Shown one piece after another: positions 4,355 to 42,018 of a DNA stretch of 64,000 nucleotides. The position numbers were made by a program, and so were the translations under genes. Every line of letters begins with the position of its first letter. Position 1 is the stretch's first letter. The stretch lies in the NCBI GenBank assembly GCA_007713595.1, contig VMRY01000003.1:248001-312000 (forward strand), read 5' to 3'. The notes beneath the pieces were generated by a model. That model was not told the DNA's origin and made no database searches. It saw only the letters and a list, made by a program, of their open reading frames with translations. This DNA comes from Sedimenticola thiotaurini. Lineage in GTDB: Bacteria; Pseudomonadota; Gammaproteobacteria; Chromatiales; Chromatiaceae.

Positions 4355-4389
4355 AAAAAGCCCCATCTCCAAAAGAGATGGGGCTTTTT
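4355..4389. terminator. Bidirectional intrinsic terminator between convergent TRAP genes
   Basis: The stem AAAAAGCCCCATCTC pairs perfectly with GAGATGGGGCTTTTT around a 5-base loop. It offers a T-tract in both directions and so serves the rightward binding-protein gene and the leftward dctQM-like pair. Confidence 0.93.
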
Positions 4390-20882: not shown

Positions 20883-21362
20883 TTAGTTGATGGAACAGCT
20901 GCCATCGGCAGGTGCCATATCATCAATTGTAGCGTCACGTACCTCAACAATCTTTATCATTACCTTGAGGGTTTTACCTGCCAATGGGTGATTGCCATCA
21001 ACCGTCAGCTTGTCGCCCTCAATCTTGCTGACATAGAAGGTCTTGGTCTCCCCCTCCTGATTCTGCATCTGCACCTCTGCTCCCAGCTGGCGGAACTGGG
21101 GTGGCACATTTTCGATATCATCGGTAAAAGTGAGCTCGGGATCATGCGCGCCAAAACCATCTTCTGGTTGAACTTCCATCTCAACTTCGTCACCCACACC
21201 CTTACCAGCAATGACCTTATCCATACTGCCTATCAGTTCGGTATCACCTCCGTGAACATAACTGACTGGAATGTCATTCTGTTCGAGCACATTTCCATCC
21301 ATATCGGTGATGTGATAGGTGAGTGAGACAAATTTTCCGGGTTTTATGACTTCGCTGGACAT
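20883..21362 (-). CDS. FKBP-type peptidyl-prolyl isomerase, SlyD-like
   Basis: Cytoplasmic proline cis-trans isomerase and chaperone, 159 aa. The FKBP part is split as in SlyD. The first part contains YVHGGDTELIGSMDKVIAGK and the acidic PEDGFGAHDPEL stretch. The inserted IF chaperone domain lies around residues 75-125 (FRQLGAEVQMQNQEGETKTF), and the last FKBP strand is VDGNHPLAGKTLKV. Only a short tail ending GSCSIN remains, in place of the His/Cys-rich nickel tail of E. coli SlyD. The ATG at 21362, with GTGGAG nine bases upstream, is preferred to an in-frame GTG at 21377. A small hairpin plus TTTT lies in its leader near 21386-21405. Confidence 0.88.
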   Translation of the reverse strand: MSSEVIKPGKFVSLTYHITDMDGNVLEQNDIPVSYVHGGDTELIGSMDKVIAGKGVGDEVEMEVQPEDGFGAHDPELTFTDDIENVPPQFRQLGAEVQMQNQEGETKTFYVSKIEGDKLTVDGNHPLAGKTLKVMIKIVEVRDATIDDMAPADGSCSIN

Positions 21363-21544
21363 AGCATACTGCTCCACTTGATTAAAAGACCCCCTGCCAG
21401 GGGCAGCTGATTATAACATCCACGTCAGCAAGCTGCGTTAAAACCGTCTGGGTTAGCTGCGCCCGACAATAAATCATCGGCACAGCCTTGTGCGAAGCCT
21501 GCTATTGTTTGAAGAGTGGCGGTACACCACACGCCGATAGATGG

Positions 21545-21568
21545 AAATGGGTGGATTTCCACCCATTT
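21545..21568. promoter_or_regulatory. Perfect 10-bp dyad, candidate DctD upstream activator site
   Basis: AAATGGGTGG and CCACCCATTT are exact inverted repeats around ATTT. The dyad centre lies about 95 bp upstream of the -24 element, where sigma-54 activators usually bind. It could instead be a terminator-like hairpin, but no T-tract follows it. Confidence 0.5.
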
Positions 21569-21649
21569 ACTAAAAGTGCTTTAATTTCTTTATCAGACAA
21601 TAGCCATAATAATTAATGGGTTATCGCACCAGCGGTGTTTACACTCATT

Positions 21650-21666
21650 CTGGCACTGCCTTTGCA
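21650..21666 (+). promoter_or_regulatory. Sigma-54 (-24/-12) promoter of dctPQM
   Basis: CTGGCACTGCCTTTGCA contains TGGCAC (21651-21656), a five-base spacer and TTGCA (21662-21666), matching the sigma-54 consensus at every invariant position. It lies 85 bp before the dctP start. The NtrC-family regulator encoded by dctD at 25487 is the natural activator. Confidence 0.88.
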
Positions 21667-21751
21667 GTATAGAGGGAACCAGCCCAGCTCCTCACATCAA
21701 GGAGGGGTAAGGAGCCTGGACCACCAAAGACAACGCAACCGGAGGAATCCA

Positions 21752-22753
21752 ATGCACAAAACTCTGATCGGCCTTGCCGTTACTGCAGCTATCTCCCTGT
21801 CATCTTCTGTGGCTTTCGCAAACTGTGATCCCGGTGAAATGGTGATCAAGTTCAGCCATGTAACCAACACTGACAAACACCCCAAGGGTATTGCGGCTTC
21901 GCTGCTCGAATCCCGTGTCAACTCCGAGATGAATGGCAAGGCCTGTATGCAGGTCTATCCAAACTCAACCCTGTACGATGACAACAAGGTACTGGAAGCC
22001 ATGTTGAATGGTGACGTGCAGTTGGCGGCTCCTTCGCTCTCCAAGTTTGAGAAGTTCACCAAGAAGTTCCGTATTTTTGATCTACCGTTCCTGTTTGAGG
22101 ATGTTGAGGCAGTGGATCGCTTCCAGAACTCCCCTGCTGGTGAGAAGCTGAAGAACTCCATGAAGAAACGCGGTCTGCTGGGTCTCTCCTACTGGCACAA
22201 CGGCATGAAGCAGCTTTCAGCAAACAAGCCATTGATCAAACCGGAAGATGCCAAGGGACTGAAATTCCGTGTACAGGCCTCTGATGTGTTGGTCGCTCAA
22301 TTTGAGCAACTCGGTGCAAACCCACAAAAGATGTCTTTCAAAGAGGTTTACGGTGGCCTTCAGACCAAGGTTATCGATGGCCAAGAGAACAGCTGGTCCA
22401 ACATCTATGGCAAGAAATTCTTTGAAGTACAAGACGGTGTAACCGCCAGTAACCACGGCATCCTGGATTATCTGGTTGTTACCTCCGACGAGTGGTGGAA
22501 TGGCCTGCCAGCCGATATTCGTGGTCAGCTAGCACAGATCCTGCAGGAAGTAACCGAGACCCGTAACTCTGAATCCGCCAAGGTGAACCAGCAGAGCATG
22601 CAACGTGTGATTGAGGCAGGTGGCGTGGTACGCACCCTGACCCCAGAACAGCGTCAGGCATGGGTTGATGCGATGAAACCTGTCTGGAAAAAGTTTGAAG
22701 GTGATATCGGCGCAGACCTGCTTGAGGCTGCCGAGGCTTCAAACAAAAAATAA
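21752..22753 (+). CDS. dctP: C4-dicarboxylate TRAP transporter binding protein DctP
   Basis: Periplasmic receptor for succinate, fumarate and malate in the DctPQM secondary transporter, 333 aa. It has a Sec signal peptide (MHKTLIGLAVTAAISLSSSV, cleaved after the AFA motif near residue 24). The FKFSHV-like start of the mature protein reads VIKFSHVTNTDKHPKG. The KGLKFRVQASDVLVAQFEQL segment holds the arginine that clamps the substrate carboxylate in DctP proteins, and QENSWSNIY follows. The ATG at 21752 has GGAGG eight bases upstream. It is transcribed from a sigma-54 promoter and followed by dctQ and dctM. A strong hairpin separates it from dctQ, which would let the binding protein be made in excess. 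Confidence 0.94.
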   Translation: MHKTLIGLAVTAAISLSSSVAFANCDPGEMVIKFSHVTNTDKHPKGIAASLLESRVNSEMNGKACMQVYPNSTLYDDNKVLEAMLNGDVQLAAPSLSKFEKFTKKFRIFDLPFLFEDVEAVDRFQNSPAGEKLKNSMKKRGLLGLSYWHNGMKQLSANKPLIKPEDAKGLKFRVQASDVLVAQFEQLGANPQKMSFKEVYGGLQTKVIDGQENSWSNIYGKKFFEVQDGVTASNHGILDYLVVTSDEWWNGLPADIRGQLAQILQEVTETRNSESAKVNQQSMQRVIEAGGVVRTLTPEQRQAWVDAMKPVWKKFEGDIGADLLEAAEASNKK

Positions 22754-22776
22754 TCTGTAGTGACGTTGTAGCATTA

Positions 22777-22804
22777 CCAGACGACCGTCTTTACGGTCGT
22801 CTGG
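22777..22804 (+). promoter_or_regulatory. Hairpin between dctP and dctQ
   Basis: A perfect 12-bp stem (22777-22788 with 22793-22804) with a CTTT loop lies 24 bases after the dctP stop. No T-tract follows. In binding-protein operons such a structure commonly protects the upstream mRNA or reduces read-through, giving more receptor than permease. Confidence 0.7.
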
Positions 22805-22846
22805 TCTGTGATCAAACCGCGTTTTAGTGCCTTCGAGGAGGCTGTA

Positions 22847-23473
22847 ATGGATTCCGCACCCATGTCCCGGTTCAGTAGAGCCATGGATCAGATAGAGGAG
22901 ACTGCCATAGCGGTCTGCCTTGGTCTTATGACCCTGATCACCTTTGCCAATGTGATCGCCCGTTATGTATTTAATAACAATATCCTCTGGGCCCTGGAGA
23001 CCACTGTATTTCTGTTTGCCTGGCTGGTGTTGATGGGCTGCTCCTACGGGGTCAAAAAGCAGTTCCATATTGGTGTTGATGTGGTGATCAATATGGTTTC
23101 GCCCAAGGCACGCCGGATGATGGCCATACTCTCTGTGACCGCCTGTCTGGCATTCGCCATCTTGTTACTGATCGGTTCCTGGGACTACTGGTATGCATTC
23201 GCCAGCAAGCGCGCATTCCTTGAAACAAATGATGTACCGATGCCCGATTTCCTGCAGTTCTTTGCCACCTGGCTGAATGATGGCGAGCTGTACGAAAAAA
23301 TGCCCCGCTTCATACCCTATCTGGCTTTGCCATTAGGCATGGCGCTGCTCACCCTACGCTTCCTGGAGATCGCATGGAAGGTGATCAAGGGCGAAAAGGA
23401 CTCTATTATCGCCAGTCACGAGGCCGAAAGTGCCGTCAGTGAAAACCCACACCATCCTGCAGGAGAGAACTGA
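22847..23473 (+). CDS. dctQ: C4-dicarboxylate TRAP transporter small permease DctQ
   Basis: Small inner-membrane subunit of DctPQM, 208 aa. There are four hydrophobic helices, around residues 22-42, 52-70, 92-112 and 155-175, and the KKQFHIGVDVVINMV segment typical of DctQ after helix 2. The ATG at 22847 is preceded by GAGGAGG, a far better ribosome site than that of the in-frame GTG at 22808. The protein has a longer loop between helices 3 and 4 and a polar C-terminal tail than the DctQ at 5791. It ends two bases before dctM, so translation is probably coupled. Confidence 0.92.
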   Translation: MDSAPMSRFSRAMDQIEETAIAVCLGLMTLITFANVIARYVFNNNILWALETTVFLFAWLVLMGCSYGVKKQFHIGVDVVINMVSPKARRMMAILSVTACLAFAILLLIGSWDYWYAFASKRAFLETNDVPMPDFLQFFATWLNDGELYEKMPRFIPYLALPLGMALLTLRFLEIAWKVIKGEKDSIIASHEAESAVSENPHHPAGEN

Positions 23474-23475
23474 GC

Positions 23476-24834
23476 ATGGATATCTTATTCCTCTTCTCCA
23501 TGGTGATAGGTCTGATGCTGATCGGTGTGCCGATCGCCGTCTCATTAGGTCTCTCCAGTATTATCTTTCTCTTTGTCCACTCAGATGCTTCACTGGCATC
23601 CGTTGCCCAGACACTCTTTTCAGCGTTTGAAGGACACTACACCCTGTTGGCGATTCCCTTTTTCATTCTCGCCTCCAGCTTTATGTCTACAGGTGGCGTA
23701 GCGCGCCGTATCATCCGATTCGCAATATCTGTTGTTGGATGGTTCCCCGGCGGCCTTGCTATGGCATCGGTCTTCGCCTGCATGATGTTCGCCGCACTCT
23801 CAGGCTCTTCACCTGCTACCGTGGTTGCCATTGGTAGTATCGTTATTGCCGGTATGGTCAAGGCCGGATACACCAAGGAGTTTGCCGCCGGTGTTATCTG
23901 TAATGCAGGTACCCTGGGTATTCTCATACCGCCATCCATCGTTATGGTGGTCTATGCAGCTGCAACCGATGTTTCGGTTGGCCGCATGTTCCTGGCCGGT
24001 GTCGTGCCAGGCACTCTGGCTGGTGTAATGCTGATGATCGGTATCTATATCGCAGCCAAGGTAAAGGGCCTGCCGGCACAACCGTTTGCCGGTTGGGGCG
24101 AAGTACTGGAATCAGCCCGCGACGCGGGTTGGGGTCTGATGCTGATTGTTATTATCCTGGGTGGTATCTACGGCGGCATCTTCACGCCGACCGAGGCCGC
24201 AGCCGTGGCTGCTGTCTACGCCTTCTTCATCGCCAATTTTATCTATAAGGACATGGGTCCACTGGCTGACAAAACAAAGGGTAACCTTTTTACTGCCCTG
24301 TTCACTGTCTTCTGGCACAAGGATACAAAGGACACCCTTTATGATGCGGGTAAGCTCACCATCATGCTGCTCTTCATCATCGCCAATGCGCTGATCCTCA
24401 AACATGTACTGACTGAAGAGCGAATTCCACAGATGATCACTGAGGCCATGTTATCAGCAGGCTTCGGACCGATTATGTTCCTTATAGTGGTAAACGTGCT
24501 GCTGCTGATCGGTGGTCAGTTTATGGAACCTTCAGGTCTTTTGATCATTGTTGCACCATTGGTCTTCCCGATCGCAATGACACTGGGTATTGATCCAATT
24601 CATCTCGGTATCATCATGGTGGTTAACATGGAAATTGGGATGATTACACCGCCTGTAGGTCTGAACCTGTTCGTAACTGCGGGTGTCTCACACATGTCCA
24701 TGATGCGTGTGGTCAAGGCGGCAGCACCCTGGCTCGGCATCATGTTCCTGTTCTTGATTATCGTCACTTATGTGCCGGCCATCTCCACCTGGTTACCTAC
24801 CCTGATGATGGGACCAGAGATCATTACCAAGTAG
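23476..24834 (+). CDS. dctM: C4-dicarboxylate TRAP transporter large permease DctM
   Basis: Large transport subunit of DctPQM, 452 aa, almost entirely hydrophobic. Family landmarks are LLAIPFFILASSFMSTGG near residue 58, SGSSPATVVAIGS near 110, NAGTLGILIPPSIVMVVYAA near 140-160, and the second repeat MEIGMITPPVGLNLFVTAG near 395. The ATG at 23476 follows the dctQ stop by two bases and has AGGAGAG upstream. The uspA gene follows 67 bp later on the same strand, possibly in the same transcript. Confidence 0.94.
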   Translation: MDILFLFSMVIGLMLIGVPIAVSLGLSSIIFLFVHSDASLASVAQTLFSAFEGHYTLLAIPFFILASSFMSTGGVARRIIRFAISVVGWFPGGLAMASVFACMMFAALSGSSPATVVAIGSIVIAGMVKAGYTKEFAAGVICNAGTLGILIPPSIVMVVYAAATDVSVGRMFLAGVVPGTLAGVMLMIGIYIAAKVKGLPAQPFAGWGEVLESARDAGWGLMLIVIILGGIYGGIFTPTEAAAVAAVYAFFIANFIYKDMGPLADKTKGNLFTALFTVFWHKDTKDTLYDAGKLTIMLLFIIANALILKHVLTEERIPQMITEAMLSAGFGPIMFLIVVNVLLLIGGQFMEPSGLLIIVAPLVFPIAMTLGIDPIHLGIIMVVNMEIGMITPPVGLNLFVTAGVSHMSMMRVVKAAAPWLGIMFLFLIIVTYVPAISTWLPTLMMGPEIITK

Positions 24835-24901: not shown

Positions 24902-25384
24902 ATGAGCATTCCTACCTTAAAAACTATTCTTTATGCGACAGACCTGGGAAAAAATATGCGGCCGGCATTTCGACACGCTATTGGTCTTGCCCAGCAGTAT
25001 CAAGCCAAGATCATCATGCTGCATGTTGCAGAACCAATCGGTAATACCGGGATGGCCGTGCTTGAACTCTATGTTCCCGACATGAGCGATGACTTTGAAC
25101 ATGAAGAGTTAAGAGAGATTCTTACAAAGATGGAGAAGCGCCTCGAAGATTTTTATATCGAGGAACTTGGAGAAGATTCAGATTTGGTTTCAGATGTTAC
25201 TGTAGTAACAGGTCGACCAGCTGAGGAGATTAAAAAATATGCCACTGCCAAAGACGTCGATCTGATTGTGATGGGCACCCACACCAATTCAAGCTTTGGT
25301 GCAGCACTGCTGGGATCAACTGCGCGTAAATTAATCAATATCATCGATCGGCCAGTGCTGGTTGTCCCTGTAATAACTAAATAG
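24902..25384 (+). CDS. Universal stress protein (UspA family)
   Basis: Cytoplasmic stress protein of the UspA fold, 160 aa. It starts KTILYATDLGKNMRPAFRHA, the usual first strand and helix. The ATP-binding type signature is near the C-terminus: IVMGTHTNSSFGAALLGSTA, fitting G-2x-G-9x-G-(S/T) loosely. It closes with VLVVPV. Such proteins often lie beside TRAP transporter genes and, as with TeaD in Halomonas, may regulate the transporter by binding it in an ATP-dependent way; that role here is inference from position just after dctPQM. The ribosome site is weak (GAGA). Confidence 0.88.
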   Translation: MSIPTLKTILYATDLGKNMRPAFRHAIGLAQQYQAKIIMLHVAEPIGNTGMAVLELYVPDMSDDFEHEELREILTKMEKRLEDFYIEELGEDSDLVSDVTVVTGRPAEEIKKYATAKDVDLIVMGTHTNSSFGAALLGSTARKLINIIDRPVLVVPVITK

Positions 25385-25486: not shown

Positions 25487-26845
25487 TTATTTATATTCGC
25501 TTTTATCCAACCCTAACTTCTTCATCTTGTCATAGAGCGTTTTGCGAGGCACACCCAGGGTGATCATAGTCTCCTTGATATTGCCTTTATGATTAGCCAG
25601 TGTCTGAGCGATGATACTTTTTTCAAAACACTCTACTTGTTCAGGGAGGGTTATTGCAGAGGTACCTTCAGTGCCATGCATCAACTGTTCAAGACGATAA
25701 CCGCAGCTCTCACCCAGCAATACATAGCGCTCTGCAACATTGCGCAGTTCACGTACATTGCCCGGCCAGGAGTGCGTCAACAGGACGCGGATCTGATCTG
25801 GTGAAGGTGCAGGAGCCTCACGCAGATAGCGGGCATTAGCTACCAGCAGGAAGTGATGAAACAGTAGTGGAATATCGTCCCGTCGTTCACGCAGTGGTGG
25901 AATATCTATAGTCACGACATTAAGCCGATAATAGAGATCCTCGCGAAACTCGCCAGCATCTGCCGCTTCTCTCAGATCAATCTTTGCCGCCGCCACAACA
26001 CTCATGTCGAGAGGAATAAGTTTATTCGAACCTATGCGTTCGATAACCCGTTCCTGCAACACCCGTAACAATCGCACCTGAACTGGCAGGGGCATGCTTT
26101 CAATCTCATCCAGAAACAGCGTACCACCGGAGGCATGTTCAAACTTACCGATCCTTCGCTCCTGAGCACCGGTAAACGCACCTGCCTCATGGCCGAACAG
26201 TTCACTCTCGATTAAATTTTCAGGTACTGCGCCACAATTCACTGCAACAAAGTTATTGTTACCACGGCCCGATGATTCATGCAGTGATCGTGCTACCAGC
26301 TCTTTACCTGTGCCTGTTTCACCTACAACCAAAATATCAGCACCCGTATTTGCCACACTGGCGATGGTGGCTCTGAGGTGTTGCATTACAGACGTCCGTC
26401 CGATGATACGTGGCCCCGGTGCGCTTTGCGCTTCCAACTCCTGGCGGAGGGTTCTGTTTTCCAAAGTCAGCGCTCTTTTATCCAGCGCTCGGCGAACCGT
26501 GTCGATCAGTTTCTCAGCTGCAAATGGTTTTTCAATAAAATCATAGGCACCATCCTGAATAGCACTTACTGCCATGGTAATGTCACCATGTCCGGTAACC
26601 AGGATAATGGGTATATCACGATCAATTTGTAGCGCTTTATTAAGAAATGTGAGGCCATCCATGCCGGGCATTTTAATATCGCACACGACTACGCCATTCC
26701 ATTCCAACGATAAAAGTTGTAAAACTTTTTCCGCCCCATTGAAGCTCTGCACTTCGAAGCCCGCCAACTCCAGTGTCTGATGATTGGCCATGCGAATATG
26801 CTTTTCATCATCTATAAAATAGACAATCGGTTTTGAATTGTTCAT
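25487..26845 (-). CDS. dctD: C4-dicarboxylate sigma-54 response regulator DctD
   Basis: NtrC-family activator that, when phosphorylated by DctB, turns on dctPQM through sigma-54 RNA polymerase. The protein is 452 aa. The receiver domain has D12-D13 and phosphoacceptor Asp56 ([13 protein letters not shown]). The AAA+ domain has Walker A GETGTGKE near residue 170, the sigma-54-contacting GAFTGA loop near 218, Walker [11 protein letters not shown], and the DLYYRLNVV and WPGNVREL motifs. A Fis-type helix-turn-helix ends the protein ([20 protein letters not shown]). The ATG at 26845 is chosen; the frame extends to a TTG at 26896 right after the dctB stop. It follows dctB in one operon. Confidence 0.93.
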
Positions 26846-26896: not shown

Positions 26897-28771
26897 TCAC
26901 TCAATCATTGCACTCTGTGTTAGCTTGTTTTCATCCAAAACCGCAAGATCCAACAGAAGAGTAAACACGGCGCCACCGGAATCATGGTTGTCTGCGGTTA
27001 GGGTACCGTGCATCATCTCAACAATCCGATAAGATATGGAGAGACCCAATCCAAGTCCTCTATCTTCAGATTTTGTTGTGAAAAAGGGGTCGAATATTTG
27101 ATCCAGATTTTCAAACGCTATGCCGGGGCCGTTATCCAGAATCTGGATTGAAGCTTTTCCATTATCTGTACTGACCATGAGCTGTATCCAACGTTCCGAT
27201 TGTTGCTCTACCGCATGTACTGCATTGGTGATCAGGTTTACTAACACCTGCTCCAGTTGAATCATATCTGCCTGAACATAAATATCGTCTGCAGGTACAA
27301 TGCGCCGGAAATCGGTCTCTGTGTCTTTGAGCTGAGGCCCAACAATCTTCATCGCGTTGTCTATAACTGCTTGCAGTGAGACTGTCACTAACTGACCCGT
27401 AGTCTTGCGGGAAAACACTTTTAGCTGGCGACTGATTGTTGCCATTCGTTCCGTCAGTTCGGCAATCTGTTCGAGATTCCAACTGGCATCATCTTTTCTA
27501 TCACGAACCAGATAAGCTCGTGCATTGTCGGCATAGGATCGTATTGCCGCCAAGGGTTGGTTGAGCTCATGATTGATGCCCGAAGAGAGTTGACCGAGTG
27601 CAGCCATCTTGGCCGCCTGTATCAATTCATCCTGTGTTTTACGCAGTGTTTCATCGGTACGCCGGTGCTCTTCAATCTCTCGAAGCAGGCGAATATTGGC
27701 TGAGGTGAGGTCAGCTGTCCGCTCCTTTACGCGCTGTTCCAGAACACGCTTGGCTCTTTTCTCATAGCGTTCGCGTTCTTTCAGGCGTCTGCTTCGCTGT
27801 ATAAAGTAGAAAAACAAAAATACAATGGCGACATAGACAATGGTTGTAATCAACAGCGATTTTAGGACCTGCGAGTTAACCACCCCAAGACTGGAAAAGA
27901 TATGCACCTTCCAGCCAGCCTCAGGCATTTCTCTGACCAACATTAGATGATCACTTTGACGGGGATCCCCAATATTTACTACCTTAGCCTGCTCTGTGAG
28001 TTGGTCCTTTTGGGATACGTTCAATGTACCAATCTCTGCCTTACCATAGCGTTTGCTATCCTGGACCCGATTAATAACTGCTTGATCCAGTGGGTACAGA
28101 CTTTTATAGCGCCACTCATCTTTGGTTGAGATAAAGATCACACCATCGGGATCTGTAACAGCAAACTCTTCTTTCAACTCGCGCCAGCTCTGTTCAAATC
28201 CCTGTAACTCAATCTTGATGACAACGGCACCGAGAATACCGCTGTCATCCTTTACCGGGTAGGCAAAATAATAACCGCGTTTGTTTGAGGTGGAGCCAAG
28301 CGCAAAATAGCGGCCCAGTTTTCCCTGCATCGCTTCCTGGAAATAAGGACGATAGGCGAAGTTCCTGCCGATAAAGGGTCGTTCTGAAAGCCAGTTTGAT
28401 GCGGCTATCGTCCAACCTTCCGCATTCATCAGATAGGTATCAGAAGCATTGGCAACTTCATTTATGGTTTCAAGATAGCGGTTTAAGGCGTTTATACTTT
28501 TTACATCATTGGGGTTATGTAAAAAGTTTATCAGCAGACTGTTCGTTGCCAGTAATTCAGGTAAAAATTCATATTTCTGCAGTTCCCCCTGCAAGTTGGC
28601 TACAAACAGTCGCAATTGATGCTGACTCTGCTGTTGTAGATTTTCCAGGGCGAGCTGGCGCGACCAGTGCCCTGTCTGCCAGAGCAGGAAAATAAGGAGG
28701 AGTCCCATCACTAAACTCAGCAGCTGCTGAATCATTCTGGAACGTTTGCTATGTGTGTTGTTTTTATCCAT
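26897..28771 (-). CDS. dctB: C4-dicarboxylate sensor histidine kinase DctB
   Basis: Membrane sensor kinase that detects dicarboxylates in the periplasm and phosphorylates DctD, 624 aa. The topology reads TM1 at about residues 14-32, a periplasmic double-Cache/PAS-like region of about 270 residues, and TM2 near 305-325 (LLITTIVYVAIVFLFFYFIQ). A coiled coil follows, then the HisKA domain with phosphoacceptor His401 in SGINHELNQPLAAIRSYADN. The HATPase domain has N-box LVNLITNAVHAV, G1 QILDNGPGIAFENL and G2 GLGLGLSISY. The dctD gene begins within 51 bp after its stop. It lies directly downstream of the atp operon terminator, with its own weak ribosome site. Confidence 0.92.
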   Translation of the reverse strand: MDKNNTHSKRSRMIQQLLSLVMGLLLIFLLWQTGHWSRQLALENLQQQSQHQLRLFVANLQGELQKYEFLPELLATNSLLINFLHNPNDVKSINALNRYLETINEVANASDTYLMNAEGWTIAASNWLSERPFIGRNFAYRPYFQEAMQGKLGRYFALGSTSNKRGYYFAYPVKDDSGILGAVVIKIELQGFEQSWRELKEEFAVTDPDGVIFISTKDEWRYKSLYPLDQAVINRVQDSKRYGKAEIGTLNVSQKDQLTEQAKVVNIGDPRQSDHLMLVREMPEAGWKVHIFSSLGVVNSQVLKSLLITTIVYVAIVFLFFYFIQRSRRLKERERYEKRAKRVLEQRVKERTADLTSANIRLLREIEEHRRTDETLRKTQDELIQAAKMAALGQLSSGINHELNQPLAAIRSYADNARAYLVRDRKDDASWNLEQIAELTERMATISRQLKVFSRKTTGQLVTVSLQAVIDNAMKIVGPQLKDTETDFRRIVPADDIYVQADMIQLEQVLVNLITNAVHAVEQQSERWIQLMVSTDNGKASIQILDNGPGIAFENLDQIFDPFFTTKSEDRGLGLGLSISYRIVEMMHGTLTADNHDSGGAVFTLLLDLAVLDENKLTQSAMIE

Positions 28772-28822
28772 AACCCGGAAATAAGTATAGGCTCTGGTAC
28801 AAAATTATTCCCCCGTATAAAC

Positions 28823-28854
28823 AAAAAAACCCCGCCATCCGGCGGGGTTTTTTT
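28823..28854. terminator. Bidirectional intrinsic terminator, end of atp operon
   Basis: CCCCGCC pairs with GGCGGGG around ATCC, flanked by seven A on one side and seven T on the other. On the minus strand it terminates the atp operon 14 bases after the atpC stop and isolates dctBD. Confidence 0.95.
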
Positions 28855-28867
28855 GCACAGCAAACAC

Positions 28868-41843: not shown

Positions 41844-41972
41844 CTGCAGAGACCGCCTTTGCGGCTATCTCTTTTCGATCAAACGACCCAATGATTTCGA
41901 TAGCCGCCAAACTTTAATGGAACAAGGGAAAAATCGCGACAAATCAAAACGCTGAAAACGGGGAGGGGGGCC

Positions 41973-42008
41973 AAGCCTCCTGATCAGCATGCACTGATCA
42001 GGAGGCTT
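41973..42008. repeat. 15-bp perfect hairpin downstream of the 75-aa gene
   Basis: Bases 41973-41987 pair exactly with 41994-42008 around a six-base loop, 10 bases beyond the stop of the 75-aa gene (minus strand). No T-tract follows; the minus strand continues with a C-rich run. It is the longest hairpin stem noted in the window. Confidence 0.75.
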
Positions 42009-42018
42009 GATGAACGGC

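Follow-up and report, generated by a model that had tools for sequence, protein, structure and literature searches.

The analysis of the intergenic region upstream of dctP suggests that the dctPQM operon, which encodes a TRAP transporter for the uptake of C4-dicarboxylates, is switched on by DctB-DctD together with RpoN and probably IHF, a reading to which we assign a probability of roughly 0.88 on the basis of sequence comparison. This 392-bp region lies within the window (i.e., the whole stretch of DNA analyzed, 64 kb of a 3.86-Mb genome), and an alignment of the sequences upstream of dctP from nine genomes of the genus, all of which carry this gene, revealed four conserved blocks separated by diverged spacers: a distal activator site (UAS2), a proximal activator site (UAS1), an IHF-like site, and a sigma-54 promoter. 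A sigma-54/DctD switch for dctPQM had already been proposed in the first-pass annotation of this DNA. This proposal is well supported, but the second of the two dyads that it named was most likely wrong, and both UAS2 and the IHF-like site were missed.

Genes of the dct locus

On the plus strand, the genes dctP, dctQ, and dctM are followed by a universal-stress-protein gene (24902-25384), and dctD and dctB are located on the minus strand, convergent to dctPQM, with the ATP synthase genes beyond them. The dctP gene (21752-22753, plus strand) encodes the TRAP solute-binding protein, as indicated by matches to TIGR00787 (273.8 bits, cut-off 175.05) and PF03480. Its product is 97% identical to the DctP proteins of the two closest named relatives, both Sedimenticola (L048 and L049), and its best solved chain is 9dsy, a C4-dicarboxylate-binding periplasmic protein DctP. 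The large TRAP permease is encoded by dctM (23476-24834, plus strand; TIGR00786, 436 bits, cut-off 268.45). The small permease was assigned to dctQ (22841-23473, plus strand; the start at 22841 was used in the search, the first GTG in the open reading frame list being at 22808) by the placement of this gene between dctP and dctM and by a match to the YiaM small permease, which at 42.6 bits is below the cut-off of 260.

The product of dctD (25487-26845, minus strand; PF00072, PF00158, and PF02954) is composed of a receiver, an AAA+ domain with the GAFTGA motif, and a Fis-type helix-turn-helix (HTH). This domain set and the relatedness of the receiver to the solved DctD 1qkk (6.5e-47; the query protein, P0002, had one extra residue preceding the ATG) place it among the NtrC-type (Group I) response regulators, and it is the single DctD match at E ≤ 1e-150 in its genome. 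The dctB gene (26897-28771, minus strand) encodes a sensor histidine kinase with a dCache domain (PF02743, HisKA, and HATPase). The sensor part is similar to the solved dctB 2zbb (4.6e-31) and to 3by9 (1.2e-50), named only as "Sensor protein", which we take to be a DctB; the protein combines a double-Cache sensor related to solved DctB with a kinase core, as expected for a member of this group. Both genes, previously placed 4-7 kb away from the proposed switch, were indeed found 3.8-7.1 kb downstream of it.

Several other elements of the locus were recorded. The UspA-family gene that follows dctM has the orientation of dctPQM and may share its transcript. Between dctP and dctQ (22776-22805) there is a hairpin with a 13-bp stem and a loop of 4; a strong hairpin is predicted at a similar place in all nine genus members with a different sequence, hence the stem has been rewritten on both sides, and it is possibly an mRNA element setting dctP expression apart from that of dctQM. 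Further long dyads are present in the window at 41972-42009, 4355-4389, and 28822-28855, the latter two having A/T runs and looking like intrinsic terminators; the last of them sits between atpC and dctB.

The sigma-54 promoter and the main activator site

The sigma-54 (-24/-12) promoter indicated in the first-pass annotation, TGGCACTGCCTTTGCA (21651-21666, plus strand), was confirmed as an exact match to TGGCAC-N5-TTGCW, and it is the sole exact match on both strands of the 64-kb window. It was aligned in all nine genus members (eight exact, one with TGGCAT), with a mean pairwise identity per column of 0.802. The cognate sigma factor is encoded in the same genome, in which one PF04552 match (rpoN, 236.8 bits) was found. 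Transcription from sigma-54 promoters starts about 12 nt downstream of the GC of the -12 element, which places the expected start at 21677 (plus strand).

Upstream of the promoter, UAS1 is a perfect dyad, AAATGGGTGGATTTCCACCCATTT (21545-21568, plus strand), which can be written as AAATGGGTGGA-TT-TCCACCCATTT. It had been described as a perfect 10-bp dyad about 95 bp from the promoter; both the place and the distance stand (94.5 bp from the centre of UAS1 to the start of the promoter match), but the arms in fact pair over 11 bp around a 2-nt centre. Among 500 dinucleotide-shuffled versions of the 392-bp region, none contained a dyad of at least 10 bp with a loop of 0-8, and AAATGGGTGGATTTCCACCCATTT is unique in the whole genome at up to 3 mismatches. 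The core operator within it, TGGGTGGATTTCCACCCA (21548-21565, plus strand), has the form TGGGTGG-N4-CCACCCA.

The dyad is also conserved in the relatives, the check that had been suggested for it: UAS1 aligned in all nine genus genomes with a mean pairwise identity of 0.831, the pattern TGGGYGG-N4-CCRCCCA was present within 1 mismatch at 9/9 genus loci (shuffle mean 0.01), and the UAS1-to-sigma-54 spacing in the genus is 103-105 bp. The UAS-to-promoter distances cluster near 80-81, 91-95, 102-105, 111-114, and 126-128 bp, with one at 58 bp. Helical phasing of these distances is suggestive only, as the statistics (R of 0.71 for period 11; 0.52, p = 0.004, for 10.5; 0.32, p = 0.13, for 10; best scanned period 11.5) are based on 20 values collapsed by eye from clades that are not independent.

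Distribution of the operator and its association with DctD

The occurrence of the operator was followed beyond the genus using family loci, defined as the best 30 of the listed dctP matches (86 of 194 genomes matched), and a set of named loci, from the counts of which the duplicates L048, L049, L050, and L052 were left out. With up to 2 mismatches allowed, TGGGYGG-N4-CCRCCCA was found upstream of dctP at 9/9 genus loci (shuffle mean 0.08), at 12/21 other family loci (shuffle mean 0.32), and at 20/76 named loci outside the genus (shuffle mean 0.40). A DctD orthologue (E ≤ 1e-150) was detected in 23 of the 30 family genomes (in G005 covered over residues 2-354 only), and the operator was present in 19 of these 23 genomes, compared with two of the seven lacking such an orthologue (Fisher p = 0.014, uncorrected for relatedness). 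With the genus itself excluded, the corresponding numbers were 10/14 and 2/7 (p = 0.16). By the criterion used, four of the 23 DctD-bearing family genomes have no operator.

This association bears on the main competing explanation, namely that the dyad is bound by a different regulator, either another NtrC-type activator or a repressor. Candidates are not scarce, as 17 strong PF00158 (sigma-54 activator) matches were found in the genome, and two family genomes have the operator (perfect in G160, locus L022; weak in G089, locus L011) with no DctD orthologue found. We nevertheless regard this explanation as improbable, given the difference between genomes with and without DctD, the retention of DctD alongside the operator in six genomes in which the two are unlinked, and the dyad frame and tandem layout, both of which match the known DctD site as given in the accessible part of its description (see below). 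In those six genomes, all of the sister genus (L012-L016 and L018), strong tandem operators are accompanied by one DctD orthologue each, the gene for which lies on a different contig from dctPQM or, in the case of G049, at a distance of 3.4 Mb; in five of them neither dctD nor dctB was found within about 8 kb on either side of dctP. As regards the two exceptions, the G160 contig stops 320 bp upstream of dctP, where its genus-mate G171 carries dctD, thus an assembly gap is possible in G160. A looser search of the seven genomes without DctD gave in each a best match 42-45% identical to DctD, and the best full-length-scored activators of G160 and G089 are about 43-44% identical to it.

It is very hard to reconcile with the comparative data that the dyad terminates transcription or controls the divergent FKBP gene (20883-21362, minus strand): the dyad does lie between divergent genes and 9/9 genus members have the FKBP gene as their upstream neighbour, but no FKBP match was found in up to 1.5 kb upstream at any of the 21 other family loci (623 bp for L020 and 320 bp for L022), 12 of which keep the site upstream of dctP, so that the site follows dctP and not the FKBP gene, and, moreover, no U-run follows the dyad and its spacing to the sigma-54 promoter is 103-105 bp in the genus.

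The exact pattern TGGGTGG-N4-CCACCCA was also tried, and rejected, as a genome-wide marker. It matched in six of 369 genomes of the class, versus eight for the reversed control, and none of the five hits outside the genome analyzed here had dctP, dctD, or dctB in up to 1.5 kb on either side; the pattern is therefore informative only upstream of dctP. Within the genome itself, TGGGYGG-N4-CCRCCCA with up to 3 mismatches occurs at 563 places (three of them at 1 mismatch) versus 490 for the control, and additional DctD targets therefore cannot be claimed.

The second activator site

The best partner of UAS1 in this region is UAS2, a degenerate distal site, GTGGCGGTACACCACACG (21516-21533, plus strand), located 32 bp upstream of UAS1 and differing at 3 of the 14 scored positions. 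Taken alone it is a weak site, since other matches with 3 mismatches are present in the window. Its mean pairwise identity in the nine genus genomes is 0.599, versus 0.342 for the sequence upstream of UAS2. The spacing was analyzed for 58 of 106 dctP upstream regions, i.e., those having a site with up to 2 mismatches when T or G was allowed at base 3. A second site (up to 5 mismatches, 19-70 bp away) was found in 54 of these 58 operator-bearing regions, and for 46 of the 54 the best partner fell exclusively at 31-34 bp, with a tie in four and another position in four (L005, L020, L090, and L108), the offsets 31-34 constituting 8 of the 104 tested. At offset -33 the 58 loci showed a mean of 5.69 mismatches, versus 9.55 (sd 0.65) across all offsets. 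The region thereby has the layout of a DctD operator in the broad sense, with tandem GG-N4-CC dyads about three turns apart upstream of a sigma-54 promoter. Sites separated by three helical turns face the same side of the DNA, an arrangement that fits the cooperative assembly of NtrC-type activators.

The first-pass annotation had instead paired UAS1 with a GCACA-GCCT-TGTGC dyad, which is indeed present at 21480-21493. Its columns are not conserved in the genus, however: the mean identity in the nine genomes is 0.357, essentially the background of 0.342 upstream of UAS2. Dyads with arms of at least 5 bp and a loop of 4 number three in the region (the GCACA dyad, UAS1, and an ACTGC/GCAGT pair that overlaps the promoter at 21655-21668), versus a shuffle mean of 0.37, with 0.4% of the shuffles reaching three; as the GCACA dyad is one of two extra 5-bp dyads of this kind, one extra is not striking. 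With an alternative partner of conserved spacing available, there is very little to recommend the GCACA dyad and UAS1 as the two activator sites.

A probable IHF-binding site

The remaining conserved block, AATTAATGGGTTA (21611-21623, plus strand), differs by one mismatch from WATCAANNNNTTR, the IHF consensus. Between UAS1 and the promoter, an IHF-like match with up to 1 mismatch was found at 8/9 genus loci (shuffle mean 1.1) and at 17/33 other loci (shuffle mean 3.84). At six of the nine genus loci this is a plus-strand match situated 27-28 bp upstream of the promoter; the match of L010 at the same position has 2 mismatches. The identity of this block in the nine genomes is 0.669, versus 0.368 for the gap towards UAS1 and 0.300 for the gap towards the promoter, and the genome encodes both IHF subunits, each above the NCBIfam cut-offs. 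Binding of IHF at 21611-21623 is graded as probable, and not higher, because the matches in the sister genus are poorer (2-3 mismatches).

Comparison with known DctD systems

The DctD site of Rhizobium meliloti, TGTGCGgaaatCCGCACA (TGTGCGG-N4-CCGCACA), belongs to a system with at least two sites upstream of dctA, and according to a reference title in the same source the affinities of the tandem dctA sites differ 50- to 100-fold (PMC11077940, excerpt). As far as the excerpt describes it, this site and TGGGTGGATTTCCACCCA have in common the 18-bp frame, the GG-N4-CC centre, and 12 of 18 bases, as well as the tandem arrangement upstream of the target and an NtrC-type DctD. They differ at bases 3 and 5 in both halves, at two central bases, and in the target, which is dctA in R. 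meliloti and dctPQM (TRAP) here. The exact rhizobial half-site TGTGCGG is absent from the operator described here, the half-sites of which are TGGGTGG. Base 5 is T in the locus analyzed, and within the genus it is T, C, or once G; because it varies, the steady difference from the rhizobial site in that excerpt is base 3 (G here, T in R. meliloti). The earlier suggestion of a different DctD operator was consequently overstated, for the site keeps the register of the rhizobial one and is altered steadily at one base per half.

Among the alphaproteobacterial dctP loci in the set, three (L085, L121, and L127) carry the rhizobial form in tandem, and many others have no operator by the criterion used. 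Vibrio sites are often mixed. The dctP operators of L055-L057, L060, L063, L065, L067, L069, L079, L086, and L111, all Vibrio, are asymmetric, with TGTGTCA on one side and CCACCCA on the other, and most are accompanied by another, half-similar site at a distance of about 33 bp.

A functional counterpart is the DctBD system of Pseudomonas aeruginosa, which, according to the part of the source available, controls dctA and dctPQM, i.e., the same two-component system acts on the same TRAP target under RpoN (PMC7962211). Another activator of the DctD family, AauR, is described in the available parts of two papers as recognizing TTCGG-N4-CCGAA (PMC7962211, PMC7386598); it shares the GG-N4-CC centre with the operator described here and differs from it in the outer half-site bases and in its target, an acidic amino acid ABC transporter. 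IHF is reported to stimulate DctD-dependent activation of dctA in Rhizobium leguminosarum and not to do so in Sinorhizobium meliloti in vitro (PMC9827912, excerpt); the role of IHF is experimental for R. leguminosarum dctA, whereas here it is indicated by a consensus-like conserved block. In the open-licence literature searched, no DctD operator of the TGGGTGG type was found to be described, which is weak evidence of absence, and neither PA5166 nor dctD occurs in the main text of PMC8041468 and PMC13086498.

A further, tentative idea, less likely than not, is that the dctPQM operons of Gammaproteobacteria have a separate, co-evolved type of DctD operator with TGGGYGG half-sites, recognized by DctD proteins whose helix-turn-helix has the form IK.TM...RKTLYDKM. 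The clearest TGTGCGG operators (those of the three alphaproteobacterial loci named above) go with an RKT[FY]YDKL HTH. Against a co-evolved class, L107 and L117 have halves of the TGTGCGG or CGTGCGG type and yet RKTLY, and the pairing of operator and HTH is confounded with taxonomy. If the idea were true, base 3 of the operator and a few helix residues would together act as a natural switch of specificity among DctD proteins, and the Vibrio sites (TGTGTCA...CCACCCA) would be mixed intermediates.

Proposed mechanism and significance

According to the preferred reading, in which DctB-DctD controls dctPQM, DctB would sense external dicarboxylate and phosphorylate DctD, which would then bind the strong UAS1 (21545-21568) and the weak UAS2 (21516-21533), two sites facing the same way on the helix, and presumably form an active AAA+ oligomer on them. 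IHF may bend the DNA around 21611-21623, bringing DctD to the RNA polymerase-sigma-54 complex at 21651-21666, and DctD would open the promoter, with transcription predicted to begin near 21677. The sequence elements with their conservation and spacing, the gene identities, and the tendency of the operator to co-occur with DctD were observed directly, and the binding, phosphorylation, bending, and oligomer assembly as well as the start site are inferred.

The best reading of these elements is that the mechanism as such is already known and that the half-site is a modest lineage-specific variant; the understanding of sigma-54 activation is unchanged. The analysis provides a testable layout for the regulation of a TRAP transporter by DctD, with two activator sites, a probable bend, a promoter, and the spacings between them. 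It also suggests that in Gammaproteobacteria each half-site of the rhizobial operator is altered at one or two bases, and this altered half-site would help annotators to seek DctD sites upstream of gammaproteobacterial dctP genes.
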